A DNA stretch of 64,000 nt from Panorpa germanica. Lineage: Eukaryota; Arthropoda; Insecta; Mecoptera; Panorpidae. A program made the position numbers and the translations under genes. Position 1 is the first letter of the stretch. Each line of letters opens with the position of its first letter. Location of the stretch: positions 13,403,807-13,467,806 of the forward strand of contig OY783206.1 in assembly GCA_963678705.1 (NCBI GenBank), written 5' to 3'. This document shows, piece after piece, positions 1,113 through 61,004 of this stretch. The notes beneath the pieces are model-generated. The model was not told the DNA's origin. It saw only the letters and a program-made list of their open reading frames with translations, and did no database searches.

Positions 1113-1862
1113 ATGTTTCCATTACGGTCTCCTAATCCTTTACCTGAGGCGTTAGACCTGTCTTGCCCGCGTCGTAGTGATAGTGTGGAAACACACAAAT
1201 CTCCATCCCCGCCGATGAGCTCTCAGTCATCAGAGCAAGGATCTAATAATCCTGAATCTTCCAAAAGTTCCCCTAACGAATACAAACCTACCACTCACAC
1301 GAACAACCATTTTGGTGTTCCCATTGCCAATATGTCAACGTATCCAGGTTTTCTGCCGCTATATCCGAGTATGTTTTTCGATCAGCAGACGCAGAATCAA
1401 TTCTTTGCACATACCGTTGCTCACCAAATGCTCCAAATCGGCACTCCAAAAAGAAACTCCGAAACACCTGAGTCAGAATCGATAACAAGAACTACTAATC
1501 AAAATGTCAGAGCAGTAGCTACTTCGACTTCAACGCCGAACAGTCGTAAAAGAGTTCGTCCTTTTACGAACTACCCAAGAGACCCAGCAGAAAATAATGA
1601 AGCTTATACAAAGTTTCGAGAAGTGGAAATGGCAAAAATAAATGCTTTGAATGGGGGTCAACCCACAGTCACAAACCCCAAAATGCGCCGAACTGTTCCT
1701 TCTAATAAGGTGTCAGAACAAGGATCTTCAGAAGGTGACGCTGATGGGAGTTCCAACCCTATAAAGGATCCAGCTTATTATGAGCGACGAATGAAGAATA
1801 ATGAAGCTGCTAAAAAATCGAGAGACAAAAGAAGAATTAATGAGCACGAATTAGCGAATTAG
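1113..1862 (+). CDS. Class A bZIP protein A1, truncated before the leucine zipper
   Basis: The product (249 aa) is a Ser/Pro/Asn-rich, probably nuclear protein that ends in a PAR/Giant-type basic region. LDLS (residues 14-17) resembles a CtBP-binding PxDLS-type motif, and a RRSDSVET..SPSPP segment follows it. The basic region KNNEAAKKSR with downstream RR is complete, so DNA contacts could be made. An 8-bp tandem duplication (GAATTAGC) at about 1853-1866 then shifts the frame into an immediate TAG, so no zipper is translated. The start is the first ATG after the acceptor at 1090, in a good insect context (AACAACAATG). Such a protein should not dimerise through a zipper. It may be a pseudogene or an altered-function form. 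A5 carries the identical lesion. Confidence 0.75.
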   Translation: MFPLRSPNPLPEALDLSCPRRSDSVETHKSPSPPMSSQSSEQGSNNPESSKSSPNEYKPTTHTNNHFGVPIANMSTYPGFLPLYPSMFFDQQTQNQFFAHTVAHQMLQIGTPKRNSETPESESITRTTNQNVRAVATSTSTPNSRKRVRPFTNYPRDPAENNEAYTKFREVEMAKINALNGGQPTVTNPKMRRTVPSNKVSEQGSSEGDADGSSNPIKDPAYYERRMKNNEAAKKSRDKRRINEHELAN

Positions 1863-1954
1863 CCATCCACAATAAATTCTTACATAATGAAGTTGCGATG
1901 CTTCGTGCTGAAGTTAATGCGTTACGAGAGCAATTGAAGAGGCATCAGAATTAG
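1863..1954 (+). pseudogene. Frameshifted leucine-zipper remainder of A1
   Basis: In another frame this segment still encodes the four-heptad zipper seen in A2 and A3 and ends at the original stop (TAG, 1952-1954). The sequence is otherwise undamaged, which implies that the 8-bp duplication is recent. Confidence 0.75.
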
Positions 1955-2234
1955 CTTAATTTTTTCCATGTTCCATGTTCTTCAATGGAGTAAAATTATT
2001 TATTAAATACAACAATTTTTGAATTATGTATTGAACAATTATAGAATAACAATTTTACAAACCCAGTAAATTGGTGATATATCATGTGATTTTTAATTTG
2101 ATACTGTTTTATATTTAAGAGATCTGAATTATCGATACCACCTCTAAGGTTGACTGATTGCTGATACAAATGTAGTTAATAACGTAGTGTATATATGTAT
2201 ATCATATTTCTTGTAATGTGTTTTATAAAAACCC

Positions 2235-2240
2235 AATAAA
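2235..2240 (+). terminator. Polyadenylation signal of A1
   Basis: AATAAA lies about 280 nt after the original stop and is conserved in position in the other class A copies. Confidence 0.55.
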
Positions 2241-3736
2241 ATAAAATAATCAAATATCTGGGAATAATCATTTGTATACCTTGAGTTTTGGCTTACATTT
2301 TGAGAAACAATTTAATATAATGACGTCATTTGTTTTATAAGGTAATATTGGCAAATGGAAAAGTTTTGAACAGCATAGTACAATAAAATATATACAGTTT
2401 AAATTACGAGAGTTCGCCGGCGACTCATGGTTAAAACAGGATGTGCCGTATAAATCTGCGATACAATGGAAAAGCACCTTGTCACACATTTTTCTACAAT
2501 GTTTATTGTAACTAATAAGTTAAAATCCCATCACCATCGTATCACCATTTATGCGACTTTTATAACCTCTTTCAGGCATAAGGCATCGCCGAACTCTCGC
2601 TATTTCGATTATATTCAAATCTTCATATCAAAGAATGTGTGCAATAATTGTTGCAGCGATTTAGGCGTTGCGTTTCCCATTAAATAAAACTGCATATTAG
2701 TGTAGATAAAAGATATTATAAATTATCATATAATTAGATATTATAATTATAAAGTATATAAGTGGATGTATCGCGTAATAATATGTAATATTAAAAAGGC
2801 TTAGACGTGACCAGATACCATCATAGATATATTTGTTGTAGCATTTAATTAGTCAAGGCCATAGATTGAGGAGCCAAACTGTGAACAAGTAGCTGGGACT
2901 GGGACCTGTAAATTAATTGCCCACAATTTAATACGCCTCTGATAGTGAATAGAATTAATGAGAACTTTACAATTTAAAATATTGGTTTTACTGTTTTTAG
3001 ATGTATAGTGGAATTTTAGGCAATTATAACATTGAGCTATTGATTGTAAATACGAGTCGCAGTAATATTTTATTCTCCATAAATAAATAAATTCCGGAAT
3101 TTGCTGTCATTGAAAACTTGTTTTTATCGTAGTACTGGGAAGATATTTTATTTCATTGTCAATTAATATTTTTCTATATAATCTCTGAATTTTAGTTGCA
3201 ACAAATGGAAAAATTCAATATTATTTAGTATAGTTACTTCGTCATAATCGATATCAAATCTTTTAACAATAGCAGATCCAAAAATACGAAATGTAAGCTA
3301 TATAATTATACTTTTCTAATGTTGAATATAATACAATTTTGTTTGCACATTTTGCTGTAGATAGCATTCTATTACTACACTATTTTTGGCACCTTTTTAA
3401 ATTTCTATAATATCTTTTTTGTTGCTAATTTTACAAACAATTTCTGCTCATTTCAATGAACTAAATTTTATATAATTTACTTCGTTATTAGTCCTTTTAT
3501 TACTTTATATGTTGGGTAAGTTTTTTGTATATTATATAAAATAATTGTCCTTTTTCATTGTTGTTTCAATTATATATAAAGTTCTTTCCATCGTTCTGTT
3601 TATTTTTATTTGATCTAATTCTACCTTCTTCTGCGGGAGAATGTCCTCCGCCATGGTGTGTTGTGGTAAATATGTGTTTTTTTTTATGTACACAAATTAA
3701 TTTTTTTTTATATAATGTATAGATAATATCTATTAT
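2241..3736 (+). other. Noncoding 3' flank of A1
   Basis: AT-rich sequence shared by all class A units. Short ORFs inside it are not kept open in every copy: A4 has a 2-bp deletion in the longest one. Apart from the CRE palindrome at 2321, I see no gene here. Confidence 0.6.
2321..2328 (+). promoter_or_regulatory. CRE palindrome TGACGTCA downstream of A1
   Basis: An exact 8-bp CRE/ATF site, a classical bZIP-dimer target, lies about 85 bp after the poly(A) signal. The same site follows eight of the nine bZIP genes. Regulatory use is inferred. Confidence 0.4.
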
Positions 3737-5920
3737 AGCCCGGTCAAATTAAACCAAAAAATAAGAGTAAAGTTACATAAATTCCCACCTAGCTGAAAAT
3801 CGGTAAGATTGTTTAAAATATCATTAAAAACAAAATTTGAAAACTCCCCATCTTTCCCCTGTACGGAAAAATTTTTATTCAAGGTCAAAGGTCAAAGAAA
3901 TGAGTTTTTCGCGATTTTCAGCAAAACGGTAAGTTTTATCATAAAAATACCTCAGACAAAAATTGTAGATCATAAAATTATCTACAAAAAATTTATTAAT
4001 ACTTTTTTCTCTGCGAGCTACCGTTTTTGAGATATAACGATTCAAAAAGTTGTAATCGTCATAATATGCATGAGTACGCCACGTATATATACATCTCTAT
4101 AGTTGTAATATATGTTAAAATATTTTTCTATCGGTCGTTGTAACTTACACTACTAATATAAAATATACATAAGTTATATATATAAATAAATAACTGTCGT
4201 ATTTGATGGCTATAATGATTGCACGAGAAATACCAAAGCTGCAGAACAGCGTCGTCGAACTTTAGCAACATCTTCATCAATTGATATTTTATTTGATGAA
4301 AATATGACAGTTCCAACCAGCCAACAAAAATTTCTTTCTAATACTCACAACAAGTCTCGGTTCATTTCAATGTTGAAAGAAAGATTTACTACGGAAAATA
4401 TATTGGTAAGACAAGCTAATAATGATGCTGATGTATTGATAATTGAAACAGCAATTGAGCAATTCAATTTGACAAATACAACTATTGTTGTTGGTGAAGA
4501 TATAGACTTACTCGTATTACTGACTGCTCGAACTCTAACTGAAAAAATTATTTTCTTCTTAAAACCAGGAAAAGCTCAACATCAATCGGAAATGTATTCA
4601 TCAAAAAGTTTATCTACTTTTGCAAAGTGTAAAAATCATGTACTATTTTTACACGCAATAACTGGCTGTGATACGACATCTGCATTTTACAGGAGGGGTA
4701 AAATAACAGTTTTCAAACTATTTGAGAAACAAAATTTAATTGAATGTGCTGAAGTTTTTAAAAATAGTAATTCTACTCGACAAGAAATTATTACTAACGG
4801 CATTCGCTTTCTTCTTTCTATGTACGGAGCTCTTAAAGAAACTACCTGCTTAGATAAGTATAGATATGCATGTTTCGTTAAAAACACCAAAAGTAAAAAA
4901 CAAGTACAATTAGCTTGTCTTCCTCCAACCTCAGTTGCTGCTCATCAACATCTTTTTAGGGTATATTACCAAGTTCAAGTGTGGCTTGGTTATCAGCTAG
5001 ACCCTACAGACTGGGGTTGGAAGTTGGTCAACAATTCATTAGAACCAGTGCACACTTTACTTCCACCTGCGCCGGAAAAACTGCTGAACTCGATTTTTTG
5101 CAACTGCAAAAAGGGATGCAGTGCTAAATGTGGTTGCAAAAAAGTCGGACTATTCTGTTCTCCGGCATGTACACATTGTCAAGGCCGGTTGTGCTCTAAT
5201 ATTGAATCACCAACAGTAGAGGATCCGTTTGATTCCAACGAGGCAACATGCGATACATCGCTATTAACGCAGTTTACATGCACTCAGGATGAAGATGAAG
5301 AAGAACAAGAACAAGAACAAGAAGAACAAGAACAAGACGAACAAGAACAAGAAGATCAAGAAGAAGAACCAGAAGAAGATTTTGAAAGTTACGACTCGGA
5401 CGATTAAATTTCACTACTTTTTTTAACTTAAATTGCTTTTATCTTTTCAATCTCTGCTAATATCCATTATTTTTCAATAGTTTCAAATTAAACAGGATCA
5501 AAACTGACCCGTGGAATAGGCCTACTGGGGAAACTACGTTAAAAAAAACGCGCTAAGTACACTACCTCATAGGTGGCGAGGAAACGTGTGCATATTATGA
5601 CGATTACAACTTTTACAACTTTTTGAATCGTTATATCTCAGAAACGGTGGCTCGTAGAGAAAAAAGTATTAAAAATTTTTTGTAGATAATTTTATGATCT
5701 ACAATTTTTGTCTGAGGTATTTTTATGATAAAACTTACCGTTTTGCTGAAAATCGCGAAAAACTCATTTCTTTGACCTTTGACCTTGAATAAAAATTTTT
5801 CCGTACAGGGGATAGATGGGGAGTTTTCAAATTTTGTTTTTAATGATATTTTAAACAATCTTACCGATTTTCAGCTAGGTGGGAATTTATGTAACTTCGA
5901 ATGTCTAACTTGACCGGGCT
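3737..5920 (+). mobile_element. DNA transposon with long terminal inverted repeats, copy 1
   Basis: The ends are AGCCCGGTCAA and TTGACCGGGCT. The left inverted repeat (about 3737-4070) matches the right one (about 5590-5920) apart from small indels near the tip and a 9-bp insertion in the right arm. Comparison with the unoccupied site downstream of A4 gives a target duplication of ATTAT, or TATTAT if the outer base is counted differently. The only gene inside is a PIN-like/CXC ORF that lacks its expected N-terminal part. The copy is therefore probably an internally deleted derivative. The superfamily is not assigned. Confidence 0.85.
4304..5407 (+). CDS. Transposon-encoded PIN/FEN1-like and CXC-domain protein, N-terminally incomplete
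   Basis: The 367-aa ORF resembles the C-terminal part of larger transposon-linked hypothetical proteins common in arthropods. VVGEDIDLLVLL (about 62-73) and HAITGCDTTSAF (about 117-128) recall the acidic and GCD motifs of PIN/FEN1-like nucleases. A cysteine cluster (about 268-302, CNCKKGCSAKCGCKK) matches the Tesmin/TSO1-type CXC DNA-binding fold. The tail is a Glu/Gln/Asp-rich stretch. The frame is open upstream to 4190 and encodes a conserved-looking VVFDGY segment before the first ATG, so this Met is probably internal and the upstream exons are missing. Nuclease function is inferred from motifs only. Confidence 0.65.
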   Translation: MTVPTSQQKFLSNTHNKSRFISMLKERFTTENILVRQANNDADVLIIETAIEQFNLTNTTIVVGEDIDLLVLLTARTLTEKIIFFLKPGKAQHQSEMYSSKSLSTFAKCKNHVLFLHAITGCDTTSAFYRRGKITVFKLFEKQNLIECAEVFKNSNSTRQEIITNGIRFLLSMYGALKETTCLDKYRYACFVKNTKSKKQVQLACLPPTSVAAHQHLFRVYYQVQVWLGYQLDPTDWGWKLVNNSLEPVHTLLPPAPEKLLNSIFCNCKKGCSAKCGCKKVGLFCSPACTHCQGRLCSNIESPTVEDPFDSNEATCDTSLLTQFTCTQDEDEEEQEQEQEEQEQDEQEQEDQEEEPEEDFESYDSDD

Positions 5921-5952
5921 ATTATTTATAATTGTTATAATTTGTTATAAAT

Positions 5953-6248
5953 TATTGAAGCAGATATTATATGCACAGTTATATATTAAATATTTTATTA
6001 ATTAATAAGTCCTCAGACTGAAATTATACAGAAAGTCCTCAGACAATATTTCTCAGATACTGAAGACAATATTAAAAAACAGATATTATACAATTGAATA
6101 AATTCAATAAATTCAAATAAAGTAAACAATTCAAACAATTCAGGAGATTAAATAGGAAACAATTGAATTTAATATATTTTTTATATAAACAAAAACAAAA
6201 CAAGTTTAAGTAATTTAATTTAAGAATGAATGTATTGTAATTCCAACA
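5953..6248 (-). repeat. Copia 3' LTR (left end in window orientation)
   Basis: On the minus strand it begins TGTTGGAATTAC and ends CTGCTTCAATA, so the outer end is AATA rather than the usual AACA. Confidence 0.9.
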
Positions 6249-6262
6249 CACCCCCTCAAGAC
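6249..6262 (-). other. Copia polypurine tract
   Basis: Read on the minus strand this is GTCTTGAGGGGGTG directly before the 3' LTR, the expected place for plus-strand priming. Confidence 0.7.
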
Positions 6263-6277
6263 ATTCATTTCAACAAT

Positions 6278-9889: not shown

Positions 9890-9903
9890 TTTTTTTAATT
9901 AAT

Positions 9904-9917
9904 CTGGGCCCATAACC
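9904..9917 (-). other. Copia primer-binding site
   Basis: The minus strand reads GGTTATGGGCCCAG right after the 5' LTR. This is the motif used by copia, which primes from an internal fragment of initiator tRNA-Met. Confidence 0.8.
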
Positions 9918-11857: not shown

Positions 11858-12537
11858 CTATGCAAAAAGTTTAGTTTTGGTCTTCCATATCAGCCTCCTT
11901 TTACACGCTGAGAATCTATTTTTTCTGTGTATCGGTGAGAATTGGGTCCACAATTAATTGCAAGTGTATTCATGATATGTAATACTTAATATGTACCTTC
12001 ATGAAATATACAAGCAGTAACATATGCAGCAATTTTTACAATGGTACTGCTACTGCACACTGGTTTTGTGCTCATTTTCCAGACTAGCTGAATGAAGCTT
12101 TCATTATTGTTTTTATTGAATCCACTAATACACCTAGAGAATAAATTATCACTACTCAGATCTTCATAAATTGGACTGCATCTCAGCCCTCAAGTAAGTT
12201 GGCTTATAGGTGATATATGTAACCAGTATACAATAATTATTGAAAAAGTACGATTTCTTCAATATTTAGGATACTTTATCATGGTTATAGACTTATAGGT
12301 TTCATTTTACTTGTAAATATTTCACTATCTCTTAGTTCTTCATAGCACCTCTTCACCCATAGTTCTAGATGATACATATCTTAGTTGAGCAGTTTACAAA
12401 TCATTTTTGATGTAATTTAAAACAATATTCTTTATTTGCACTGAAAGTGTTTGCTGATTTTTAGATTTATGCTTTTCATGATATGATTTTATTTTTTTGT
12501 ACTAAATATATTTATTAATATGTATTTAATTTTGCAG
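11858..12537 (+). other. Upstream region and intron acceptor of B1
   Basis: From about 12190 this aligns with the class A intron and ends in a TTTTGCAG acceptor at 12537, so B1 should also be spliced at its 5' end. I could not find a TATA/Inr promoter or first exon here. Confidence 0.5.
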
Positions 12538-12559
12538 ATTTCGTTCGAAAAAAACAACA

Positions 12560-13288
12560 ATGTTTCCATTACGGTATCCTAATCCTTTACCTGAGGCGTC
12601 GATGAGCTCTCAGTCATCAGAGCATGGATCTAATAATCCCGAATCTTCAAGAACTTCCCCTAACGAATACAAACCTACGACACAGACAATCAACCATTTT
12701 TGTGTTTTAAATCGCATTGCCAATATGTCAACGTATCAAGGTTCACCGCCGGTATATCCGGGTATGCATTTCGATAAGCAGACGCAGAATCAATTCTTCG
12801 CACGTACCTCAGAAACACCTGAGTCAAAATCGGAAGCACCAGCTAGTAATCAAGAAGTCAGAGCTGATTCGACTTCACAGCCGTGCAGTTTTAAGCACTA
12901 CCTCAAAAACTCCAAAAAATTTCTAGCATATTTTAATGATGCAGAGTATATGAAGTTTCGAGAGGTGAAAATGGCAGAAATACATGCTTCGAAGGGGGGC
13001 CGAACTGTTCCTTCTAATAAAATATCAGAACAAGGATCTTCAGAAGGTGACGGTGATGGGAGTTCCAACCCTAAAAAGGATCCAGCTTATTACGAGCAAC
13101 AAATGAGGAGTAATGCAGCTGCTAAAAAATCGAGAGACAAAAGAAGAATTCCTTTAGACGAATTAGCCTTCCGCCATGAATTCTTGGAAAATGAAAATGC
13201 GAAGCTTCGTGCTGAAAATAATGCGTTACGAGAGCAATTGAACAGGCATCAGAAATCAGATGATGCAAAAAGAGTAAAATTATTTTAA
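12560..13288 (+). CDS. Class B bZIP protein B1
   Basis: This 242-aa protein starts like class A (MFPLR.PNPLPEA) but then skips the 20-residue LDLS/SVET/SPSPP block and the AHQMLQIG segment. The bZIP is C-terminal: basic region RSNAAAKKSR at about 183-192 with RR after it, then leucines at about 202, 209, 216 and 223 with ideal nine-residue spacing from the basic region. A class-specific charged tail (KSDDAKRVKLF) ends the protein. It is likely a nuclear, dimerising DNA-binding protein. The start is the ATG after the conserved acceptor. Among the class B copies only B1 keeps Lys at residue 189. Without the putative corepressor motif it could act as an activator or as an antagonist of class A; this is inferred. 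Confidence 0.85.
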   Translation: MFPLRYPNPLPEASMSSQSSEHGSNNPESSRTSPNEYKPTTQTINHFCVLNRIANMSTYQGSPPVYPGMHFDKQTQNQFFARTSETPESKSEAPASNQEVRADSTSQPCSFKHYLKNSKKFLAYFNDAEYMKFREVKMAEIHASKGGRTVPSNKISEQGSSEGDGDGSSNPKKDPAYYEQQMRSNAAAKKSRDKRRIPLDELAFRHEFLENENAKLRAENNALREQLNRHQKSDDAKRVKLF

Positions 13289-19394: not shown

Positions 19395-20228
19395 ATGTTT
19401 CCATTACGGTCTCCTAATCCTTTACCTGAGGCGTTAGACCTGTCTTGCCCGCGTCGTAGTGATAGTGTGGAAACACACAAATCTCCATCCCCGCCGATGA
19501 GCTCTCAGTCATCAGAGCAAGGATCTAATAATCCTGAATCTTCCAGAAGTTCCCCTAACGAATACAAACCTACCACTCACACGATCAACCATTTTGGTGT
19601 TCCCATTACCAATATGTCAACGTATCCAGGTTTTCTGCCGCTATATCCGAGTATGTTTTTCGATCAGCAGACGCAGAATCAATTCTTTGCACATACCGTT
19701 GCTCACCAAATGCTCCAAATCGGCACTCCAAAAAGAAACTCCGAAACACCTGAGTCAGAATCGATAACAACAACTACTAATCAAAATGTCAGAGCAGTAG
19801 CTACTTCGACTTCAACGCCGAACAGTCGTAAAAGAGTTCGTCCTTTTACGAACTACCCAAAAGACCCAGCAGAAAATAATGAAGCTTATACAAAGTTTCG
19901 AGAAGTGGAAATGGCAAAAATAAATGCTTTGAATGGGGGTCAACCCACAGTCACAAACCCCAAAATGCGCCGAACTGTTCCTTCTAATAAGGTGTCAGAA
20001 CAAGGATCTTCAGAAGGTGACGCTGATGGGAGTTCCAACCCTATAAAGGATCCAGCTTATTATGAGCGACGAATGAAGAATAATGCAGCTGCTAAAAAAT
20101 CGAGAGACAAAAGAAGAATTAATGAGCACGAATTAGCCATCCACAATAAATTCTTACATAATGAAGTTGCGATGCTTCGTGCTGAAGTTAATGCGTTACG
20201 AGAGCAATTGAACAGGCATCAGAATTAG
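19395..20228 (+). CDS. Class A bZIP protein A2, intact
   Basis: This 277-aa protein is the best reference copy. The N terminus holds LDLS at 14-17, a candidate CtBP-type corepressor motif, then RRSDSVET and a Ser/Pro run (20-34). The middle is Ser/Thr/Asn/Gln-rich without predicted structure. The bZIP is C-terminal: KDPAYYERR from 218, KNNAAAKKSR at 228-237, nine residues, then zipper leucines at 247, 254, 261 and 268. The pattern fits the PAR/Giant/CES-2 group. It is inferred to be a nuclear DNA-binding repressor acting as a dimer. The start follows a perfect acceptor (19372) and leader. Promoter, 5' exon, intron and poly(A) signal are all visible. Confidence 0.9.
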   Translation: MFPLRSPNPLPEALDLSCPRRSDSVETHKSPSPPMSSQSSEQGSNNPESSRSSPNEYKPTTHTINHFGVPITNMSTYPGFLPLYPSMFFDQQTQNQFFAHTVAHQMLQIGTPKRNSETPESESITTTTNQNVRAVATSTSTPNSRKRVRPFTNYPKDPAENNEAYTKFREVEMAKINALNGGQPTVTNPKMRRTVPSNKVSEQGSSEGDADGSSNPIKDPAYYERRMKNNAAAKKSRDKRRINEHELAIHNKFLHNEVAMLRAEVNALREQLNRHQN

Positions 20229-26571: not shown

Positions 26572-27300
26572 ATGTTTCCATTACGGTATCCTAATCCTTT
26601 ACCTGAGGCGTCGATGAGCTCTTAGTCATCAGAGCATGGATCTAATAATCCCGAATCTTCAAGAACTTCCCCTAACGAATACAAACCTACGACACAGACA
26701 ATCAACCATTTTGGTGTTATAAATCGCATTGCCAATATGTCAACGTATCAAGGTTCACCGCCGGTATATCCGGGTATGCATTTCGATCAGCAGACGCAGA
26801 ATCAATTCTTCGCACGTACCTCAGAAACACCTGAGTCAAAATCGGAAGCACCAGCTAGTAATCAAGAAGTCAGAGCTGATTCGACTTCACAGCCGTGCAG
26901 TTTTAAGCACTACCTCAAAAACTCCAAAAAATTTCTAGCATATTTTAATGATGCAGAGTATATGAAGTTTCGAGAGGTGAAAATGGCAGAAATACATGCT
27001 TCGAAGGGGGGCCGAACTGTTCCTTCTAATAAAATATCAGAACAAGGATCTTCAGAAGGTGACGGTGATGGGAGTTCCAACCCTAAAAAGGATCCAGCTT
27101 ATTACGAGCAACAAATGAGGAGTAATGCAGCTGCTGAAAAATCGAGAGACAAAAGAAGAATTCCTTTAGACGAATTAGCCTTCCGCCATGAATTCTTGGA
27201 AAATGAAAATGCGAAGCTTCGTGCTGAAAATAATGCGTTACGAGAGCAATTGAACAGGCATCAGAAATCAGATGATGCAAAAAGAGTAAAATTATTTTAA
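26572..27300 (+). pseudogene. Class B bZIP gene B2 with premature stop
   Basis: The frame is collinear with B1 over 243 codons, but codon 18 is TAG (26623-26625) where the others have CAG (Gln). Reinitiation at the Met at 26737 would give a 187-aa protein that keeps the whole basic region and zipper. The basic region carries Glu in place of Lys (RSNAAAEKSR). No other disabling change is visible, so the nonsense change is probably young. The copy may be a pseudogene or an N-terminally shortened form. Confidence 0.8.
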
Positions 27301-32514: not shown

Positions 32515-33348
32515 ATGTTTCCATTACGGAATCCCAATCCTTTACCTGAGGCGTTAGACCTGTCTTGCCCGCGTCGTAGTGATAGTGTGGAAACACACAA
32601 ATCTCCATCCCCGCCGATGAGCTCTCAGTCATCAGAGCAAGGATCTAATAATCCTGAATCTTCCAGAAGTTCCCCTAACGAAAACAAACCTACCACTCAC
32701 ACGAACAACCATTTTGGTGTTCCCATTGCCAATATGTCAACGTATCCAGGTTTTCTGCCGCTATATCCGGCTATGTTTTTCGATCAGCAGACGCAGAATC
32801 AATTCTTTGCACATACCGTTGCTCACCAAATGCTCCAAATCGGCACTCCAAAAAGAAACTCCGAAACACCTGAGTCAGAATCGATAACAAGAACTACTAA
32901 TCAAAATGTCAGAGCAGTAGCTACTTCGACTTCAACGCCGAACAGTCGTAAAAGAGTTCGTCCTTTTACGAACTACCCAAAAGACCCAGCAGAAAATAAT
33001 GAAGCTTATACAAAGTTTCGAGAAGTGGAAATGGCAAAAATAAATGCTTTGAATGGGGGTCAACCCACAGTCACAAACCCCAAAATGCGCCGAACTGTTC
33101 CTTCTAATAAGGTGTCAGAACAAGGATCTTCAGAAGGTGACGCTGATGGGAGTTCCAACCCTATAAAGGATCCAGCTTATTATGAGCGACGAATGAAGAA
33201 TAATGCAGCTGCTAAAAAATCGAGAGACAAAAGAAGAATTAATGAGCACGAATTAGCCATCCACAATAAATTCTTACACAATGAAGTTGCGATGCTTCGT
33301 GCTGAAGTTAATGCGTTACGAGAGCAATTGAAGGGGCATCAGAATTAG
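32515..33348 (+). CDS. Class A bZIP protein A3, intact
   Basis: This 277-aa protein has the same architecture as A2, with LDLS, a complete basic region (KNNAAAKKSR) and a four-heptad zipper with standard spacing. Differences from A2 are scattered substitutions, such as RNPNP for RSPNP near the start and Lys-Gly in place of Asn-Arg near the C terminus (LKGHQN). The frame is open upstream to 32452, but that part lies before the acceptor at 32492 and would be intron. The ATG at 32515 is therefore the likely start. With A2 it is one of two fully open class A genes here. Confidence 0.88.
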   Translation: MFPLRNPNPLPEALDLSCPRRSDSVETHKSPSPPMSSQSSEQGSNNPESSRSSPNENKPTTHTNNHFGVPIANMSTYPGFLPLYPAMFFDQQTQNQFFAHTVAHQMLQIGTPKRNSETPESESITRTTNQNVRAVATSTSTPNSRKRVRPFTNYPKDPAENNEAYTKFREVEMAKINALNGGQPTVTNPKMRRTVPSNKVSEQGSSEGDADGSSNPIKDPAYYERRMKNNAAAKKSRDKRRINEHELAIHNKFLHNEVAMLRAEVNALREQLKGHQN

Positions 33349-37242: not shown

Positions 37243-37971
37243 ATGTTTCCATTACGGTATCCCAATCCTTTACCTGAGGCGTCGATGAGCTCTCAGTCAT
37301 CAGAGCATGGATCTAATAATCCCGAATCTTCAAGAACTTCCCCTAACGAATACAAACCTACGACACAGACGATCAACCATTTTGGTGTTATAAATCGCAT
37401 TGCCAATATGTCAACGTATCAAGGTTCACCGCCGGTATATCCGGGTATGCATTTCGATCAGCAGACGCAGAATCAATTCTTCGCACGTACCTCAGAAACA
37501 CCTGAGTCAAAATCGGAAGTATCAGCTGGTAATCAAGAAGTCAGAGCTGATTCGACTTCACAGCCGTGCAGTTTTAAGAACTACCTAAAAAACTCCAAAA
37601 AATTACCAGCATATTTTAATGATGCAAAGTATATGAAGTTTCGAGAGGTGAAAATGGCAGAAATATATGCTTCGAGGGGGGGCCGAACTGTTCCTTCTAA
37701 TAAAATATCAGAACAAGGATCTTCAGAAGGTGACGGTGATGGGAGTTCCAACTCTAAAAAGGATCCAGCTTATTACGAGCAACAAATGAGGAGTAATGCA
37801 GCTGCTGAAAAATCGAGAGACAAAAGAAGAATTCCTTTAGACGAATTAGCCTTCCGCCATGAATTCTTGGAAAATGAAAATGCGAAGCTTCGTGCTGAAA
37901 ATAATGCGTTACGAGAGCAATTGAACAGGCATCAGAAATCAGATGATGCAAAAAGAGTAAAATTATTTTAA
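37243..37971 (+). CDS. Class B bZIP protein B3
   Basis: This 242-aa protein is collinear with B1. The basic region reads RSNAAAEKSR, with Glu at residue 189. The zipper leucines and the KSDDAKRVKLF tail are unchanged. Several substitutions cluster in the central linker (for example SEVSAGN, KKLPAYFNDAKY and IYASRGG). The frame is intact from the ATG after the conserved acceptor. Dimerisation should be normal. DNA affinity or specificity may be changed by the acidic residue, which would fit a dominant-negative or altered-specificity partner; this is inferred. Confidence 0.84.
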   Translation: MFPLRYPNPLPEASMSSQSSEHGSNNPESSRTSPNEYKPTTQTINHFGVINRIANMSTYQGSPPVYPGMHFDQQTQNQFFARTSETPESKSEVSAGNQEVRADSTSQPCSFKNYLKNSKKLPAYFNDAKYMKFREVKMAEIYASRGGRTVPSNKISEQGSSEGDGDGSSNSKKDPAYYEQQMRSNAAAEKSRDKRRIPLDELAFRHEFLENENAKLRAENNALREQLNRHQKSDDAKRVKLF

Positions 37972-43638: not shown

Positions 43639-43815
43639 ATTTCGTTCGACAATGTTTCCATATTCTTTACCGACAAAAACAACAATGTTTCCATATTCTT
43701 TACCCGAGTCGTTAGACCTGTCTTGCCCGCGTCGTAGTGATAGTGTGGAAACACACAAATCTCCATCTCCGCCGATGAGCTCTCAGTCATCAGAGCAAGG
43801 ATCTAATAATCCTGA
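43186..43815 (+). repeat. 315-bp tandem duplication across the A4 acceptor and 5' coding region
   Basis: 43186-43500 and 43501-43815 are near-identical direct repeats. They cover the intron end, acceptor, leader, ATG and the first ~55 codons. The join lies in a short AATC shared by intron and coding sequence. Confidence 0.9.
43337..43516 (+). pseudogene. Duplicated first coding segment of A4 (59-aa ORF)
   Basis: If the upstream acceptor is used, translation from 43337 includes the LDLS motif. It then runs into duplicated intron sequence and stops (PESFLM, TAA at 43514), with no bZIP. If the transcript uses the downstream acceptor, this segment is intronic. Confidence 0.7.
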
Positions 43816-44515
43816 ATCTTCCAGAAGTTCCCTTAACGAATACAAACCTACCACTCACACGAACAACCATTTTGGTGTTCCCATTGCCAATATGTCAACG
43901 TATCCAGGTTCTCTGCCGCTATATCCGGCTATGTTTTTCGATCAGCAGACGCAGAATCAATTCTTTGCACATACCGTTGCTCACCAAATGCTCCAAATCG
44001 GCACTCCAAAAAGAAACTCCGAAACACCTGAGTCAGAATCGATAACAACAACTACTAATCAAAATGTCAGAGCAGTAGCTACTTCGACTTCAACGCCGAT
44101 CAGTCGTAAAAGAGTTTGTCCTTTTACGAACTACCCAAAAGACCCAGCAGGATTAGCAGCATATTTTAATGCTGAAAATAATGAAGCTTATACAAAGTTT
44201 CGAGATGCTTTGAATGGGGGTCAACCCACAGTCACAAACCCCAAAATGCGCCGAACTGTTCCTTCTAATAAGGTGTCAGAACAAGGATCTTCAGAAGGTG
44301 ACGCTGATGGGAGTTCCAACCCTAAAAAGGATGAAGCTTATTATGAGCGAAGAATGAAGAATAATGCAGCTGCTAAAAAATCGAGAGACAAAAGAAGAAT
44401 TAATGAGCTAATTAACGAATTAGCCATCCACAATAAATTCTTACACAATGAAAATGCGATGCTTCGTGCTGAAGTTAATGCGTTACGAGAGCAATTGAAC
44501 AGGCATCAGAATTAG
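43652..44515 (+). CDS. Class A bZIP protein A4, divergent
   Basis: This 287-aa protein starts from the second acceptor (43638). A short duplication gives MFPYSLP twice, and LDLS is at 21-24. A segment GLAAYFNA, resembling class B, is kept here but deleted from the other class A copies; in turn seven residues (EVEMAKI region) are missing. The basic region KNNAAAKKSR is intact. The join to the zipper reads INELINELA instead of INEHELA, two residues longer. Basic-to-zipper spacing is invariant in bZIP proteins, so the helix phase between DNA-binding and dimer surfaces is altered. Expression and function are therefore uncertain. Confidence 0.82.
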   Translation: MFPYSLPTKTTMFPYSLPESLDLSCPRRSDSVETHKSPSPPMSSQSSEQGSNNPESSRSSLNEYKPTTHTNNHFGVPIANMSTYPGSLPLYPAMFFDQQTQNQFFAHTVAHQMLQIGTPKRNSETPESESITTTTNQNVRAVATSTSTPISRKRVCPFTNYPKDPAGLAAYFNAENNEAYTKFRDALNGGQPTVTNPKMRRTVPSNKVSEQGSSEGDADGSSNPKKDEAYYERRMKNNAAAKKSRDKRRINELINELAIHNKFLHNENAMLRAEVNALREQLNRHQN

Positions 44516-48570: not shown

Positions 48571-49302
48571 ATGTTTCCATTCCGGTATCCTAATCCTTTA
48601 CCTGAGGCGTCGATGAGCTCTCAGTCATCAGAGCATGGATCTAATAATCCCGAATCTTCAAGAACTTCCCCTAACGAATACAAACCTACGACACAGACGA
48701 TCAACCATTTTGGTGTTATAAATCGCATTGCCAATATGTCAACGTATCAAGGTTCACCGCCGGTATATCCGGGTATGCATTTCGATCAGCAGACGCAGAA
48801 TCAATTCTTCGCACGTACCTCAGAAACACCTGAGTCAAAATCGGAAGCATCAGCTAGTAATCAAGAAGTCAGAGCTGATTCGACTTCACAGCCTTGCAGT
48901 TTTAAGAACTACCTAAAAAACTCCAAAAAATTACCAGCATATTTTAATGATGCAAAGTATATGAAGTTTCGAGAGGTGAAAATGGCTGAAATACTTGCTT
49001 CGAAGGGGGGCCGAACTGTTCCTTCTAATAAAATATCAGAACAAGGATCTTCAGAAGGTGACGGTGATGGGAGTTCCAACCCTAAAAAGGATCCAGCTTA
49101 TTACGAGCAACAAATGAGGAGTAATGCAGCTGCTGAAAAATCGAGAGACAAAAGAAGAATTCCTCTAGACGAATTAGCCTTCCGCAATGAATTCTTGGAA
49201 AATGAAAATGCGCAGCTTCGTGCTGAAGTTAATGCGATACGAGAACAACAGTCAGAGAGGCATCAGAAATCAGATGATGCAAAAAGAGTAAAATTATTTT
49301 AA
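48571..49302 (+). CDS. Class B bZIP protein B4
   Basis: This 243-aa protein has an intact frame. The basic region is RSNAAAEKSR, with the acidic change shared with B2 and B3. The zipper is partly class A-like (RAEVNA). Its fourth heptad position is Ile instead of Leu, followed by REQQSERHQK in place of REQLNRHQK, so dimer strength or partner choice may differ. The class B tail is kept. The gypsy element lies about 2.4 kb downstream and does not interrupt the gene. Confidence 0.84.
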   Translation: MFPFRYPNPLPEASMSSQSSEHGSNNPESSRTSPNEYKPTTQTINHFGVINRIANMSTYQGSPPVYPGMHFDQQTQNQFFARTSETPESKSEASASNQEVRADSTSQPCSFKNYLKNSKKLPAYFNDAKYMKFREVKMAEILASKGGRTVPSNKISEQGSSEGDGDGSSNPKKDPAYYEQQMRSNAAAEKSRDKRRIPLDELAFRNEFLENENAQLRAEVNAIREQQSERHQKSDDAKRVKLF

Positions 49303-52487: not shown

Positions 52488-52489
52488 AA

Positions 52490-52499
52490 TGGTGTCAGA
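52490..52499 (+). other. Gypsy element primer-binding site
   Basis: TGGTGTCAGA begins 2 nt after the LTR and resembles the tRNA-Leu primer sites used by several insect LTR elements, as recalled. Confidence 0.5.
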
Positions 52500-53584
52500 T
52501 GTGAGGTTTGAAGAGATATTCCTACACATAAATATCCAAGAGGTACGCCCAAAATTTTTTTCTATATATTCTACACCTGGATGCAGATCAATTATTCTGG
52601 ATACCACTACGTCGATCGATTATTTCCAAAATTGCCGAAGAGTACGAGATAGAACGTCAATTCATCTGTATTTCACATAATTTTTCTACAAGTCCGGTGG
52701 ATGCAAAACTACAGCCCGCCGAACCAGAAAAAAAGAAATCTTTTGCCGCCATGCGAATGGATGGATGCTTCTAGAACACATGGAATAATCTAAATCGATG
52801 TTGGTCGCGTCCAGAGCCCTGCACACAGCTGTTTATAGATCATAATCACTGATAAGAAAATCTTTAAGTATAATAAGACAGTATCTTTTTTTTTGTATAT
52901 AATTATTACTATAAATTGATAATTGTATTTTTTTTGAATAGCAACGTTACTAATGAAGCTATGATTTTTTTTTAGTATTATATTCAGTACTTTTGAATAT
53001 TTGCTATAATCTAAGTATTTTTTATTAGCATCATTATTAACGAGGTTATAATTTTTTTTAGTATTATATTCAATACTTTTGAATATTTGCTATAACCTAA
53101 CTTTTTTTGTAGCATCATTGTTTGTCATTGAAGCTATTAATTTTTTTAGTATTATATTCAATACTTTTGAATATTTGCTATAACCTAAGTATTTTTGTAG
53201 CATCATTGTTTGTCATTGAAGCTATTAATTTTTTTTAGTATTATATCCAATACTTTTGCATATTTACTATAATATTTTTTTATAATTGTTTCCACAATTA
53301 TACTAATTTATGTTAATATTTTTTTAGAACAACATCTTTTTTTGAACGAGAGGGAATTTTGAAAAGGAGAAGTAAAGAGCTGAAGCAGTTAGATAGCAGT
53401 CTGTTCAATCAGAGAGACTACCTTCCTGTTACAACTGCAACGTCTGAGCCCCATCGGAAATTTCCTGTGAGTTACTGTTTTCGCTAACAATTTTTCCTTG
53501 TCAGAATCCTATTTTTCGGAGAGTCGTTTATTGGTACAAAATAATCTTTAGTCTGTATATTATATATAACTTTAATTAAGTACA
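52500..53584 (+). other. Gypsy element untranslated leader
   Basis: About 1.1 kb between the primer site and the ORF, including the tandem repeats at 52938-53283. No domain-bearing ORF is found. Confidence 0.6.
52938..53283 (+). repeat. Four tandem ~85-bp repeats in the gypsy leader
   Basis: Each unit holds TTTTAGTATTATATTCAATA and then TTTGAATATTTGCTATAA with minor changes. Units 3 and 4 are the most alike. Confidence 0.75.
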
Positions 53585-56125: not shown

Positions 56126-56400
56126 AACCTTGACGAATAAGATGGATTTTGTCAGGGATGATTGTTTTGTGAGGCAGTGTCAACTCTATACGATGGGATC
56201 AGAATCGTTGTCGACACTTTGCTTCTCTTTTTGTTTTTTTTCCAGAATTGTAACTCGTATATTTTGTTTTTATACGTGTCCCTTTTTTTTTGGAAGGGGG
56301 TGTTGCGATAGTACGACATCGTCCTATCTTCCTTTTTCTTTTTCTTGGAAAGAAACGCATATGTTTGTTTAATATGCGTTCCTTTTTTAGGGTTGAAGGG
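56126..56400 (+). other. Gypsy element 3' untranslated region and polypurine tract
   Basis: Pyrimidine-rich sequence ending in AGGGTTGAAGGG directly before the 3' LTR, a plausible plus-strand primer. The ORF at 56118 has no recognisable domain. Confidence 0.5.
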
Positions 56401-57194
56401 TGTTGTAAGTACGCATAAGTCGTACTTATCCTTCCTATTTTTAATATAAATGTTATTTATTTTATAAGAATTATATTACGTTATCTTTAATTTTAGTATT
56501 AATATTGTAATAAATAATTATTTGTTTTTAGCGCTTGTAAACATTGACTCTGGTCTGTGGAGATTTTATATTGTTTTAATGCTGGTAACTCAGTATTGGC
56601 ATATTGTGATGTGAAATAAATCATTATATATTAATCTGCACGCTAGTCAGAAAGTCAGTCTTCTCCTGAGTCTCAAAGCAAGCATTACTATTCGCAACTT
56701 CGTACGTATTGAATAGTGAGCACATTTCAACTATTAATTAAATTATAACACTATAGAATTACATTTTGTTTTATATCTGTCATCTTCGTTAATCTAATAA
56801 AATACTATTGTAATTAAGTAAGCAGATATAATATTACAACGAATAAATGATATATTTTAATAAAAGTGTTTGTATTAATAGTAATAAAAAGATACTAATT
56901 GTTCAACCGTCGCATGTCGCAACGAGGTTACTTTAGACCGCTCAAGTATTCTCTAATTGCAACAATACACCGTCTAACAAGAATCCTATTAATCATCTTA
57001 AAAGAGTTAATTCTTATCAACGTGAGTAATTCAAGAAGGTGGATGATCGTCAACTGAAGAGTCTACTTCCAGAAACTAGCAACACTGCGTGATGTATTAG
57101 CAAGCTGAGTAATCTCCTTCTAGAACGAGCATCAGACCTCTTTTTACAACATTGATGTCAAGTGTAACATCCGCCTTCGAATATACTTACAACA
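56401..57194 (+). repeat. Gypsy element 3' LTR
   Basis: Same 794-bp length as the 5' LTR; no differences noticed. Confidence 0.9.
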
Positions 57195-57269
57195 ATTGTT
57201 ATGTTATGAGAGGTCCAATGTTCAAGCTGCGAGTCTTATCAACTATACGAGTATATGCGTATTAAAATA

Positions 57270-57349
57270 ACGTTCGGAAAGGATTCGATCCCAGATCTTC
57301 TGTTTAGTACACAGCTGCTGTCACGCTTGCTGACACGATCTCTTACTGA
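57270..57349 (-). repeat. tRNA-like relic (B4 unit)
   Basis: Counterpart of 15751-15830. Confidence 0.4.
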
Positions 57350-57924
57350 TAAATTATACTAATTTTTAATCATAGACAAGTACTCGTTGCCTAGGTCGTT
57401 GGACAAAGAGGTGTTTTCTGTGACATTCCTAAGCCTATTCCTTGGCACTGCGCAACATAATATGAGCTATGACGTAGGCTCATCTGCCGTAAGTTTTCTA
57501 TCACCGTTCCACAGTCTTACGTTACCTACACATTACGCTACCTGAACTATAAACCATACCAGAAATTCTTTTCTTTTTCAATGAAAGGGTATAACTTTGA
57601 AGGATATGCAAATAAAACAGTAAATGACCTCGCAGGATTTGTAAATGGTGCAAAAATGTTTTATGGTTTTATAACTAAACATGAAATATCTTTAGAGGAA
57701 TTTTATGTTAATGGCTTGAAATATAAATATTTAATAAAATATATCAGGCATGGACTATATTGGACAAATATCAGTCCTTGGTAATGTGGAGTCCATGAAA
57801 TTAAAATCATAAACAGGGCCGCTCTGAAAGAATTTTTAGTAGATGCGAGATGCGAGGCGGTTCCACTAATTCAAAGATTCTCCGGAGTGTTGTCCACCCC
57901 CCTTAGGGAAGCCTATAACCACCG

Positions 57925-57968
57925 CGCTTAACGAGCATAATACGTTTCAGAATCTTACTCGTTAAGCG
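57925..57968. other. Perfect 11-bp inverted repeat (B4 unit)
   Basis: Both arms intact, as in the B2 unit. Confidence 0.55.
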
Positions 57969-58604
57969 AAACAGTTTTCTTTCACAAATTAATGTAAAAT
58001 ACGATAATACTTTCCACGCCGAAAAAATACTCAAAATATTTTGTACAAAGTTTATTCAAAGAGAATTATATAAAGAGTATATACAATGTTAGGAACGTGA
58101 TTAATCTTCCTCTTCTATCGCGGAAGGAACGAATCTGGAATGACATCAGCTCTGGGCTGTGTTCTTCCACAGGCTCATCGATATCTCCACTCCCATGATC
58201 TTGCCAAAGACACAATCTCGTTGACTACATCTTGAGGCAGGAAGTGATATTTCCAAAACTATCTGAGAGTGAGATTGGTCATTTAGTCACCTTAAAACAA
58301 CGCTCAAAAACGCGTTGTGTAGAGCTTCTAAAAGTTAGAAATAACATTATTCTACATTTTATTTCTATCGTATTTTCGTTCATTTAAAAAAAAATTGACA
58401 ATTTTCAAAATAATAGAAAATATATTAAGCAAGATTCTAAAAATTGAGTTCATTTAATTGAAATTAGATTAGCTTTAGCATTTTTCTCACGGTCCAATTA
58501 TTAATAATAGATAATATTTTTGAATATTTTCCCCCCACCATTAATATTTTTGCAAAATATGAAACAGAAACCCTTTTATGTCTCAGGTTTAAATATTCAT
58601 CCTG

Positions 58605-58675
58605 ATTGGTCGTAAACTGAATGGCTTAAGTGACCATTGGGTATTATAAACGCACTGTATTTTGAAAAAAAATCA
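58605..58675 (+). promoter_or_regulatory. Core promoter of A5
   Basis: ATTGG at 58605, TATAAA at 58645-58650, and the initiator TCATTT A at 58675 (30-bp spacing). TATTATAAA form, as in A2. Confidence 0.8.
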
Positions 58676-58816
58676 TTTAGTATCTGTTGAAGGGTAGTAC
58701 ACGTTACTCATAGCTCCGCATATTATTCATTGCAAATAAATTTTGTGATTTTATTTTAAGTGAAACGCGTGTCAAGTGTGTTCATAAACATTGGATTTTC
58801 TATTGCCAGATCAGAT
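58675..58816 (+). other. A5 exon 1 (5' UTR)
   Basis: 142 nt, ending at donor CAGAT|GTAAGT. Confidence 0.65.
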
Positions 58817-60232
58817 GTAAGTATTTTTAAATTTAACTATTAATATTGTTTTTTTCTTTTCGTCTCTTCTTAAGTAAATTGTCTCATAGGTGATATATGT
58901 AACCAGTATAAATTATTTACTAGAAAAGTACGATTTCTTCAATATTTAGGATACTTTATCATGGTTACCCAGTAAACATTTTGGAGTAAATTCTACTTAA
59001 TTTCTATTACATATCATGAGTTTTTTGTCTGGAACGTGTTCGTTTTCTATTCAGTCGTTCATAGGAAAGGCCCTCTTTATGACCTAAAGAGATCGCAACG
59101 ACGGTTCACTGCTGAATTAAAAGCGGAGTCGGTTTATGATTTATGACCGGAGTTATAAACTTGACACTAGTAGGGATGGCAGGGGTATAAAACTTAATGG
59201 AATTCTACTTTTTAGAGTCTGCAAAATATAAATATTTAAATGAAGAAATAAATAGATGTAATCTTTAGTACGGCTCGTGATTTTTTTAATGAATATTATT
59301 CATCTTCAACAATACTCGTTATATTAGTTTTTTACATTGTTTTGGTGATTCAAAAATCCACGATCGGCAGGTCTGCGTTAGGTTTAAAACCTCTGTCTTA
59401 CCCTCGCAGCTTAGAATATTCGTTTAAAAACATTATATTCGGAGATTGAGGGAGACAGCGTGTGCCTATTACCATTAAAGAAATATTGGTTGAAAAAGGA
59501 TAGCATATACTTTAAACATACTGTACTGAACGAAATACTATACAAGTGTAACGGCGAAAAATATATTTTACTTGTCTAACCGCATCTCGTTTCTCTCTCA
59601 TATTTGGAATAAATGAGATGAAAGTGAACTTAAAAAAAATATATCCATGTGTGAAAGAAACAGAAATACTTAATGAATGATGTTGGAAAAAGAAAGAATA
59701 TTATTATGAAAAAAATCTAACAACTAACACAAAATCTGTGACAGGTAGAGAATGAATTTTAACTAAAAGCGATTTTTGTGTACCACTTTTGAACTATTAA
59801 CGAACTTGCTAAGACTACATATATCAGATTTTATTTCACAAAATCTTGACAGGTAGGGAATAAATTTGAACTAAAATTGGTTTGTGTGTTGTTGCTTAGA
59901 ACTTGTAAAGCGTTAGAATAGAATTGTACGAGTGACTCTAACTTCACCAAATAGGGCACTTCACCAAATTGTTTACTGGGTATAGACCTATAGGTTTCAT
60001 TTTAGTCGTTAATATTTCATTATCTCATAGTTCTTCATAGCACCTCTTCACCCTTAGTTCTAGATGACACATATCTTAGTTGAGCAGTTCACAAATCATT
60101 TTTGATGTAATTTAAAACAATATTCTTTATTTGTACTGAAAGTGTTTGCTGGCTTTTAGATTTATGCTTTTCATGATATGATTTTACTTTTTTGCACTAA
60201 ATATATTTATTAATATGTATTTTATTTTACAG
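58817..60232 (+). other. A5 5' UTR intron
   Basis: 1416 bp. From 59143 it matches the start of the window base for base apart from one change noticed (C742 versus G59884). Confidence 0.7.
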
Positions 60233-60254
60233 ATTTCGTTCGAAAAAAACAACA

Positions 60255-61004
60255 ATGTTTCCATTACGGTCTCCTAATCCTTTACCTGAGGCGTTAGACC
60301 TGTCTTGCCCGCGTCGTAGTGATAGTGTGGAAACACACAAATCTCCATCCCCGCCGATGAGCTCTCAGTCATCAGAGCAAGGATCTAATAATCCTGAATC
60401 TTCCAAAAGTTCCCCTAACGAATACAAACCTACCACTCACACGAACAACCATTTTGGTGTTCCCATTGCCAATATGTCAACGTATCCAGGTTTTCTGCCG
60501 CTATATCCGAGTATGTTTTTCGATCAGCAGACGCAGAATCAATTCTTTGCACATACCGTTGCTCACCAAATGCTCCAAATCGGCACTCCAAAAAGAAACT
60601 CCGAAACACCTGAGTCAGAATCGATAACAAGAACTACTAATCAAAATGTCAGAGCAGTAGCTACTTCGACTTCAACGCCGAACAGTCGTAAAAGAGTTCG
60701 TCCTTTTACGAACTACCCAAGAGACCCAGCAGAAAATAATGAAGCTTATACAAAGTTTCGAGAAGTGGAAATGGCAAAAATAAATGCTTTGAATGGGGGT
60801 CAACCCACAGTCACAAACCCCAAAATGCGCCGAACTGTTCCTTCTAATAAGGTGTCAGAACAAGGATCTTCAGAAGGTGACGCTGATGGGAGTTCCAACC
60901 CTATAAAGGATCCAGCTTATTATGAGCGACGAATGAAGAATAATGAAGCTGCTAAAAAATCGAGAGACAAAAGAAGAATTAATGAGCACGAATTAGCGAA
61001 TTAG
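60255..61004 (+). CDS. Class A bZIP protein A5, truncated before the zipper
   Basis: The 249-aa product is identical to A1, including the 8-bp duplication and stop after INEHELAN. Promoter, exon 1, donor, acceptor and poly(A) signal are all present, so a transcript is plausible. The product would keep LDLS and the basic region but no dimerisation zipper. Confidence 0.75.
   Translation: MFPLRSPNPLPEALDLSCPRRSDSVETHKSPSPPMSSQSSEQGSNNPESSKSSPNEYKPTTHTNNHFGVPIANMSTYPGFLPLYPSMFFDQQTQNQFFAHTVAHQMLQIGTPKRNSETPESESITRTTNQNVRAVATSTSTPNSRKRVRPFTNYPRDPAENNEAYTKFREVEMAKINALNGGQPTVTNPKMRRTVPSNKVSEQGSSEGDADGSSNPIKDPAYYERRMKNNEAAKKSRDKRRINEHELAN

Follow-up and report, generated by a model that had tools for sequence, protein, structure and literature searches.

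Gap-gene regulators, among them the insect bZIP Giant, a master repressor in embryo patterning, are textbook conserved genes, and the ampliconic multicopy genes of sex chromosomes combine tandem units, mosaic similarity, broken copies and a transposon load. In bZIP proteins an Asn and an Arg are invariant and the zipper begins at the tenth residue after the Arg (excerpts of PMC5662769); an excerpted preprint terms the Asn invariant against 54 human bZIPs and describes Zta(N182S), in which its replacement by Ser shifts the preference to a new site, TCA(C/G)TGA (PMC13228511). CHOP is a bZIP paralogue that uses non-canonical sites and carries changes at positions on which DNA binding depends critically, and titles cited in the same paper refer to its dominant-negative action and its dimerization with C/EBPs (excerpts of PMC5718554). 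The Giant homodimer binds DNA (excerpt of PMC3731213).

The 64-kb window (the whole stretch of DNA analysed here) carries bZIP coding exons of two classes, A and B. The class A basic region and an LDLS repression-type block match a provisional Giant reference sequence; unlike Giant, the genes here form a tandem array of two classes with mostly defective copies, and class B has Ser at the invariant Asn position. Like CHOP, class B is altered at key positions of its basic region; it keeps the zipper leucines and could act as CHOP does. However, CHOP belongs to another bZIP family and pairs with C/EBPs, whereas B1 and B3 are predicted to be poor partners of A2 and A3. The Asn-to-Ser change of class B is identical to that of Zta(N182S), but the latter is a single laboratory change, while class B is natural and carries further alterations. 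With the ampliconic genes the array shares tandem units, mosaicism, broken copies and transposons. Taken as a whole, it resembles an amplification that evolves fast and is partly in decay more than it resembles extra doses of a working regulator.

Array layout and repeat units

Loci were surveyed by tblastn of one class A and one class B protein against the whole window with E values up to 1, which returned nine loci, all on the + strand, and a further partial hit where the start of A4 is duplicated. The exons follow the order A-B-A-B-A-B-A-B-A, that is, four tandem pairs and the start of a fifth, just as the earlier note had described. ARAGORN and Rfam scans gave no matches. The features are as follows.

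1-4858, no strand: repeated block, first copy; matches 59143-64000 with a single difference, at position 742
835-1152, + strand: shared 5' block (acceptor-like site, leader and first codons); identity to the B counterparts, such as 12282-12599, is 94-96%
1113-1862, + strand: A1, class A coding exon, 249 aa; frameshift by an 8-bp duplication directly past the basic region
12560-13288, + strand: B1, open coding exon of class B (242 aa); hinge Pro, and Ser in place of the invariant Asn
19395-20228, + strand: A2, open coding exon of class A (277 aa) with a canonical bZIP
26572-27300, + strand: B2, class B coding exon; TAG at codon 18, rest open
32515-33348, + strand: A3, open coding exon of class A (277 aa) with a canonical bZIP
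37243-37971, + strand: B3, open coding exon of class B (242 aa)
43652-44515, + strand: A4, open coding exon of class A (287 aa); two added residues between basic region and zipper
48571-49302, + strand: B4, open coding exon of class B (243 aa) with N N V Q at the a-positions
59143-64000, no strand: repeated block, second copy; matches 1-4858 and is cut by the window end
60255-61004, + strand: A5, class A coding exon; coding sequence equal to that of A1, including the frameshift

The A+B unit has its phase points at 1, 18003, 31408, 42237 and 59143, which supports the earlier inference that an A+B pair was amplified as a unit; the classes alternate because the exons lie in tandem copies of that one unit, and an argument from chance is unneeded. 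The blocks 1-4858 and 59143-64000 form a near-perfect repeat with a 59-kb period. Since they differ at 1 of 4,858 bases, A5 is not independent of A1. The remaining units are 1.2-2.7% diverged from one another in a mosaic pattern, and units 1-4 mutually differ by substitutions, indels and insertions. The window holds multicopy tandem units with mosaic similarity. Transposons are also present in the array, with certain insertions common to some units, and the start region of A4 is doubled by a perfect tandem repeat of 315 bp.

The normal class end is reached in six of the nine ORFs (A2, A3, A4, B1, B3 and B4). The other three copies carry a frameshift or an early stop, and each break occurs in one copy only or, for the frameshift, in A1 and A5 together; in A1, the rest of the zipper codons continue in a different frame, up to 1951. 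A shared acceptor, leader and bZIP had been proposed for the two classes. The shared 5' block and the bZIP bear this out, but the acceptor is only plausible: a simple pattern scan found no strong splice donor within 2 kb upstream of A2. Upstream of B1 the scan found five, every one outside the shared 5' block.

bZIP classes, their relatives and zipper pairing

The Pfam bZIP_2 profile was scanned against A1-A4, B1, B3, B4 and the open part of B2, with A5 omitted as equal to A1. All eight copies scored above the curated cut-off (31.6-53.2 bits against 22.3), and the match of A1 was limited to profile positions 1-31 of 54. The two classes do differ by an N-terminal block and a C-terminal tail as claimed previously, and the N-terminal block, which comprises 20 residues with the LDLS motif, is found in class A and missing from class B.

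Residue numbering and register were set with NFIL3 as an external alignment. The pattern N-x7-R with Leu ten residues past the Arg is present in A2 and A3 only. In A4 the Asn and Arg are present and the Leu is displaced by two, so that the zipper is out of phase with the basic region, and A1/A5 extend just to the first Leu, with most of the zipper missing. All four B copies have Ser in place of the invariant DNA-contacting Asn, together with a hinge Pro and Gln-Gln; Lys5 is replaced by Glu in B2-B4. The zipper leucines of class B are kept, with four d-position Leu in B1 and B3 and three plus Ile in B4. Judged by these residues, canonical bZIPs are two of the nine copies, A2 and A3, and most copies look broken or altered where the protein would hold DNA or its partner. 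That the canonical copies seen number two only is an observation against the explanation favoured below. All nine coding exons of the earlier note are present as loci, but A1 and A5 are frameshifted, B2 is stopped and A5 duplicates A1. A set of nine functional genes was rejected on these breaks, the phase shift of A4 and the basic-region changes of class B.

Among solved structures, NFIL3 was the sole strong match (E 3.3e-7 for A2, 2.2e-9 for A4 and 5.8e-5 for B3), and C/EBP, ATF-2 and others trail it by far; Giant is absent from that set, so the ranking concerns solved relatives only. The basic region of A2 is identical to a provisional Drosophila Giant reference at 22 of 26 positions, against 17 for NFIL3/E4BP4 (PDB) and, with references that are likewise provisional, 16 for Pdp1 and 15 for Vrille. 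In the zipper of A2, Giant is no better a match than the other references (10/33 for Giant, 8-9 for the others). When a provisional Giant repression stretch was aligned with the class A block LDLS..RR.DSVET..PSP, the score was 52, equalled by none of 5000 shuffles, whereas its score of 25 with B3 was reached by 816 of 5000. This class A block may correspond to the N-terminal CtBP-dependent repression stretch of Giant, and the array proteins are candidate Giant members by their identity to the provisional sequence. The Giant-type bZIP assignment of the earlier note is thus supported as a lead, with the provisional Giant bZIP fitting better than provisional Vrille or Pdp1 and NFIL3 the nearest solved relative.

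Asn/Val mismatches at a-positions strongly destabilise bZIP pairs (excerpts of PMC4335062). Between the zippers of A2/A3 and B1/B3 there are two such internal mismatches, arguing for separate predicted homodimers of A2/A3 and B1/B3. An A/B heterodimer is disfavoured for these copies by the zipper register and the Asn-matching rule. The a-positions of A4 and B4 match if the shift of A4 is allowed for.

Reading-frame retention and selection

All 16 cross-class pairs gave dN/dS values of 0.95-1.41. We judged the codon model by likelihoods at fixed omega; of the kappa values tried, 2.0 was both the best and the smallest. The free fit reached lnL -2043.7; at kappa 2, omega values of 1.0 and 1.5 gave -2044.5 and -2044.4, and 0.6 and 0.3 gave -2050.6 and -2072.2. 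The excess of nonsynonymous changes falls short of significance (66 N and 16 S among fixed differences, neutral share 0.732, p 0.083), and an MK-like table gave p 0.56. Within class B, the three pairs involving B4 have dN/dS of 0.52-0.65, which hints at constraint. In the A4/B4 zipper, pS exceeds pN.

The reading frame was nevertheless kept across the A-B split. In DNA-level alignments, A-B coding indels are multiples of three in 8/8 cases for A2/B3 and A3/B3, 9/9 for A2/B4 and A3/B4, and 7/9 for A2/B1 and A3/B1, against 0/3 in the homologous 3' noncoding block. For four A-B pairs, the probability of no stop under neutral change is 0.010-0.025. Variable sites are mostly indistinguishable between coding and noncoding sequence, and neutral decay of recent copies is therefore possible. 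Like the non-significant excess, the B4 values and the A4/B4 zipper, this speaks against the explanation favoured below. Fast protein change with the frame kept would, we infer, fit a birth-and-death process in which selection is diversifying or relaxed.

Explanations for the array and their meaning

We favour, at a probability of roughly one half, a tandem ampliconic and fast-evolving Giant-like pair in which class A is a repressor-type homodimer and class B a derivative whose DNA binding was altered or lost. A Giant-like bZIP gene would first have duplicated into classes A and B, and an A+B unit of about 11 kb would then have been amplified in tandem, with some units lengthened by transposons. 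Class A (A2 and A3) may bind DNA as a homodimer and, with an LDLS-type co-repressor (CtBP) motif at its N terminus, act as a Giant-like short-range repressor. Class B, with the LDLS block lost, Ser for Asn, the hinge Pro and a zipper that seems to favour itself or a third bZIP over A2/A3, would either have gained a new DNA specificity or bind poorly and titrate another bZIP. The copies would have undergone birth-and-death evolution as in ampliconic conflict genes.

A dead or dying cluster, in which the whole array is non-functional repeat DNA with a drifting bZIP pair, is possible, though we think it unlikely. It would account for the three broken copies of nine, the out-of-phase A4, the transposon load, dN/dS near 1 and coding variation about equal to noncoding in most comparisons. 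However, the frame was retained across 8-9 A-B indels and ~90-108 substitutions with no stop, and each break is confined to one copy or to A1 together with A5.

A sharper form of the Giant-derived pair seems doubtful to us. There class A would be a CtBP-type repressor homodimer and class B a natural Zta(N182S)-like switch with its repression arm lost and its zipper insulated from A by opposite changes at a-positions, Asn to Val in A1-A3 and Val to Asn in B1-B3. Each class would then recognise DNA sites of its own, perhaps as part of a conflict over dosage. Slightly more doubtful still is a CHOP-like inhibitor, with class B as a zipper-only titrator of an ordinary single-copy Giant or other bZIP and class A minor or decaying. 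The altered Asn, the hinge Pro, the Lys5-to-Glu change of B2-B4, the kept leucines and the lost LDLS block are consistent with such a protein, and CHOP offers a precedent (excerpts of PMC5718554). On the other hand, Asn to Ser alone altered and did not abolish Zta binding (excerpts of the preprint PMC13228511), the B1/B3 zippers clash with A2/A3, and the partner is putative.

Very improbable is the model put forward in the earlier note, that amplification of the pair gave many doses of two potentially heterodimerising regulators. Amplification by units, possible co-expression from the shared 5' block and the a-positions of A4 and B4, which match once the A4 shift is allowed for, are in keeping with it, but neither part of the claim found support: A2 and A3, the sole canonical copies, each meet two Asn/Val clashes with B1/B3, A1/A5 lack most of the zipper and B2 is stopped. 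Equally improbable is a false duplication in assembly of the 59-kb-period copy, and perhaps of the 315-bp A4 repeat, as the single difference in 4,858 bases (against 1.2-2.7% among other units) and the perfection of the shorter repeat might suggest, given that the differences among units 1-4 show these not to be assembly copies and that the identity extends to the window edges with no false join visible.

Relatives sought elsewhere were confirmed neither in viral contigs (104 and 60 pattern matches) nor in prokaryote contigs (150 and 102), where little was expected. Among the matches listed from a partial literature collection there was no report of such a Giant-like array, and a peptide-fragment query of the literature gave no match. 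If the favoured reading of an amplified Giant-like pair is true, a fast-evolving, partly broken array with class B altered at an "invariant" residue would be an unusual fate for a gap gene. The array would show, in a natural setting, how paralogous bZIPs avoid cross-talk and shift their DNA specificity, and the region that it marks may be sex-linked or one of multicopy conflict.

Layout of the array and its insertions

The array is real. With A2 and B3, representing the class A and class B coding exons, as queries, tblastn (E up to 1) located nine loci in the window plus a partial duplicate of the start of A4; the nine bZIP coding exons lie in strict alternation, A-B-A-B-A-B-A-B-A, on the + strand, as the earlier note had described. 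Self-comparison of the window placed phase-equivalent points at 1, 18003, 31408, 42237, and 59143, showing that the amplified unit is an A+B pair. The GC content is 25‒36% in 2-kb steps. Units 1‒4 diverge by 1.2‒2.7% when their A and B halves are compared, and which two of them are most alike switches along the sequence, a pattern expected under unequal exchange or gene conversion. Unit 5, the start of a fifth pair containing A5, shows a single-base difference between 59143‒64000 and 1‒4858. This repeat has a period of 59,142 bp, the length of exactly four pairs, and unit 5 thus either belongs to a large duplication that is very recent or was falsely duplicated in the assembly. The following features interrupt or extend the units, and the differences in unit length are chiefly due to insertions.

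3732‒5925, 22010‒24205, and 62874‒64000 (cut by the window end): terminal-inverted-repeat DNA transposon, in units 1, 2, and 5
5947‒10213: copia-type element in unit 1, with 302-bp LTRs 99.3% alike
18543‒18800: tRNA-type SINE with an A-rich tail and target duplication TAATGAATGATG
43185‒43818: perfect tandem repeat of period 315, which gives A4 two copies each of its acceptor-like site, leader, and first codons
51693‒57214: LTR element in unit 4, with 815-bp LTRs 99.1% alike

The DNA transposon has inverted repeats of ~339 bp, a TTA target duplication, and a 405-aa ORF without a Pfam match, and unit 4 has an exact empty site for it at ~46290. In unit 1 it adjoins the copia-type element, whose long ORF on the - strand matches gag, integrase, and partial reverse transcriptase. 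The SINE occurs only in unit 2 among the units in the window. The LTR element of unit 4 carries an 849-aa ORF matching DUF1759 and a retroviral-type protease, and encloses an 88-bp tandem repeat (52954‒53272). The duplication at A4 is either very recent or an assembly effect. Separately, 21-bp repeats lie 5' of three class B copies (11037‒11156, 25050‒25169, and 47122‒47165) and are of two kinds, seemingly inverted versions of each other.

Condition of the copies and family identity

The normal class end is reached by six of the nine ORFs (A2, A3, A4, B1, B3, and B4). A1 and A5 are frameshifted by an identical 8-bp duplication, so that their proteins end just past the basic region, and B2 has an early stop, TAG at codon 18. 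In the numbering used here, the invariant Asn is residue 0 and the invariant Arg is residue 8, with the zipper beginning ten residues past this Arg, according to PMC5662769. A2 and A3 are canonical, with Asn0, Arg8, Leu at 18, 25, 32, and 39, and a-positions N V V L. A4 has Asn0 and Arg8, and two additional residues ahead of the zipper shift it such that the d-positions would be N, K, A, and N if the phase is fixed. The array thus does not amount to nine good genes, and the many doses envisaged in the earlier note are not borne out.

Ser at position 0 and the hinge RRIPLDEL are found in B1, B3, and B4, and, by a separate alignment, in B2. Since the class B Ser aligns with the first residue of the Asn-Asn pair in NFIL3, position 0 is fixed independently of manual counting. 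Position 5 is Glu instead of Lys in B2‒B4, and Lys is retained in B1. B1 and B3 share the a-positions H N N L, and B4 has N N V Q at these sites. The N-terminal block LDLSCPRRSDSVETHKSPSPP is present in class A and absent in class B, and its LDLS core presumably resembles CtBP-binding motifs. Class B ends in a tail, AKRVKLF, which we take to be similar to a nuclear localisation signal of the c-Myc type; no such tail occurs in class A.

13253‒13285, 27265‒27297, 37936‒37968, and 49267‒49299, + strand: AKRVKLF tail of class B

Within its family, the bZIP of the array falls on the NFIL3/PAR side. Among solved structures, NFIL3 was the only strong match (E 3.3e-7 for A2, 2.2e-9 for A4, and 5.8e-5 for B3), and the next matches were at E 0.17, 0.05, and 0.15, respectively. 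The basic region shares 22 of 26 residues with the presumed Giant sequence, versus 15 and 16 with the likewise presumed sequences of Vrille and Pdp1, and 17 with NFIL3. The presumed repression stretch of Giant aligned with class A at a score of 52, which none of 5000 shuffles reached (best 49), and with B3 at a score of 25, which 816 of 5000 reached; since this stretch was picked once the window had been read, the class A alignment is a lead and not a test. The assignment to Giant, founded on these presumed sequences, is likewise a lead. The host is presumably an insect. The viral and prokaryote collections yielded no relative.

Predicted DNA binding and pairing

Asn0 is termed invariant against 54 human bZIPs in a preprint (PMC13228511), which also describes a change from Asn to Ser at this position in viral Zta that creates a new preferred site. 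Class B has the same change as Zta. Since Ser at this otherwise invariant position alters the Zta site, class B would either read other DNA or bind poorly, an option raised by its hinge Pro and by the altered charge at position 5.

An a-position Asn opposite Val strongly destabilises bZIP pairs, as reported in PMC4335062. Pairing of A2 or A3 with B1 or B3 would bring two such clashes, at positions 29 and 36, and the a-positions are matched in the homodimers of A2, A3, B1, and B3. Heterodimerisation of A with B, as proposed in the earlier note, is therefore disfavoured for A2/A3 with B1/B3. B4 would clash with A2/A3 at one position (29). Giant binds DNA as a homodimer, according to PMC3731213. 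N-N-V is common to A4 and B4, allowing for the A4 shift, which suggests that N-N-V may be ancestral and that A1‒A3 and B1‒B3 then diverged in opposite directions.

Rates of change and selection

The dN/dS values were 0.95‒1.41 between classes (16/16 pairs) and 0.52‒2.33 within classes (10 of 12 pairs, where defined), and the lowest, 0.52‒0.65 in the three B4 pairs, hint at some constraint there. In the codon model, the fit with omega 0.3 (lnL -2072.2) was much worse than the free fit (-2043.7), but that with omega 1.0 (-2044.5) was not. Fixed differences comprised 66 nonsynonymous and 16 synonymous changes (neutral share 0.732, p 0.083), and an MK-like table gave p 0.56. Coding variable sites were not clearly fewer than noncoding ones, either in class A (22/701 versus 70/1870 in four units, p 0.55; 12/734 versus 67/2250 in three, p 0.048) or in class B (33/726 versus 150/4389 in four, p 0.13; 18/726 versus 132/4391 in three, p 0.48). 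Strong overall purifying selection was shown by none of dN/dS, the codon model, fixed differences, and variable sites.

Under neutral change, the probability of no stop codon was 0.010‒0.025 for four A-B pairs; the two pairs tested within a class gave 0.30 and 0.34. At the DNA level, A-B coding indels were multiples of three in 8/8 (A2/B3, A3/B3), 9/9 (A2/B4, A3/B4), and 7/9 cases (A2/B1, A3/B1), versus 0/3 in the homologous 3' noncoding block. The low no-stop probability and these indels argue that the reading frame of the proteins was maintained during the A-B split. Change between A2 and B3 clusters in the middle region (pN 0.25, pS 0.15) and zipper (pN 0.18, pS 0.10) rather than the N-terminal part (pN 0.08, pS 0.13), whereas the A4/B4 zipper shows the opposite direction (pN 0.19, pS 0.24), all of these values being based on small counts. 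The 277-bp noncoding portion of the 5' block shared by both classes has 11‒20 differences in the 16 A-B comparisons. For A2/B1, its 18 differences versus 18 at ~140 synonymous sites (p 0.04) could reflect constraint or gene conversion.

The evidence best fits an amplified Giant-like pair that is evolving fast and partly decaying, in which class A would be a conventional regulator and class B a derivative without the repression block, its DNA binding probably changed or lost.
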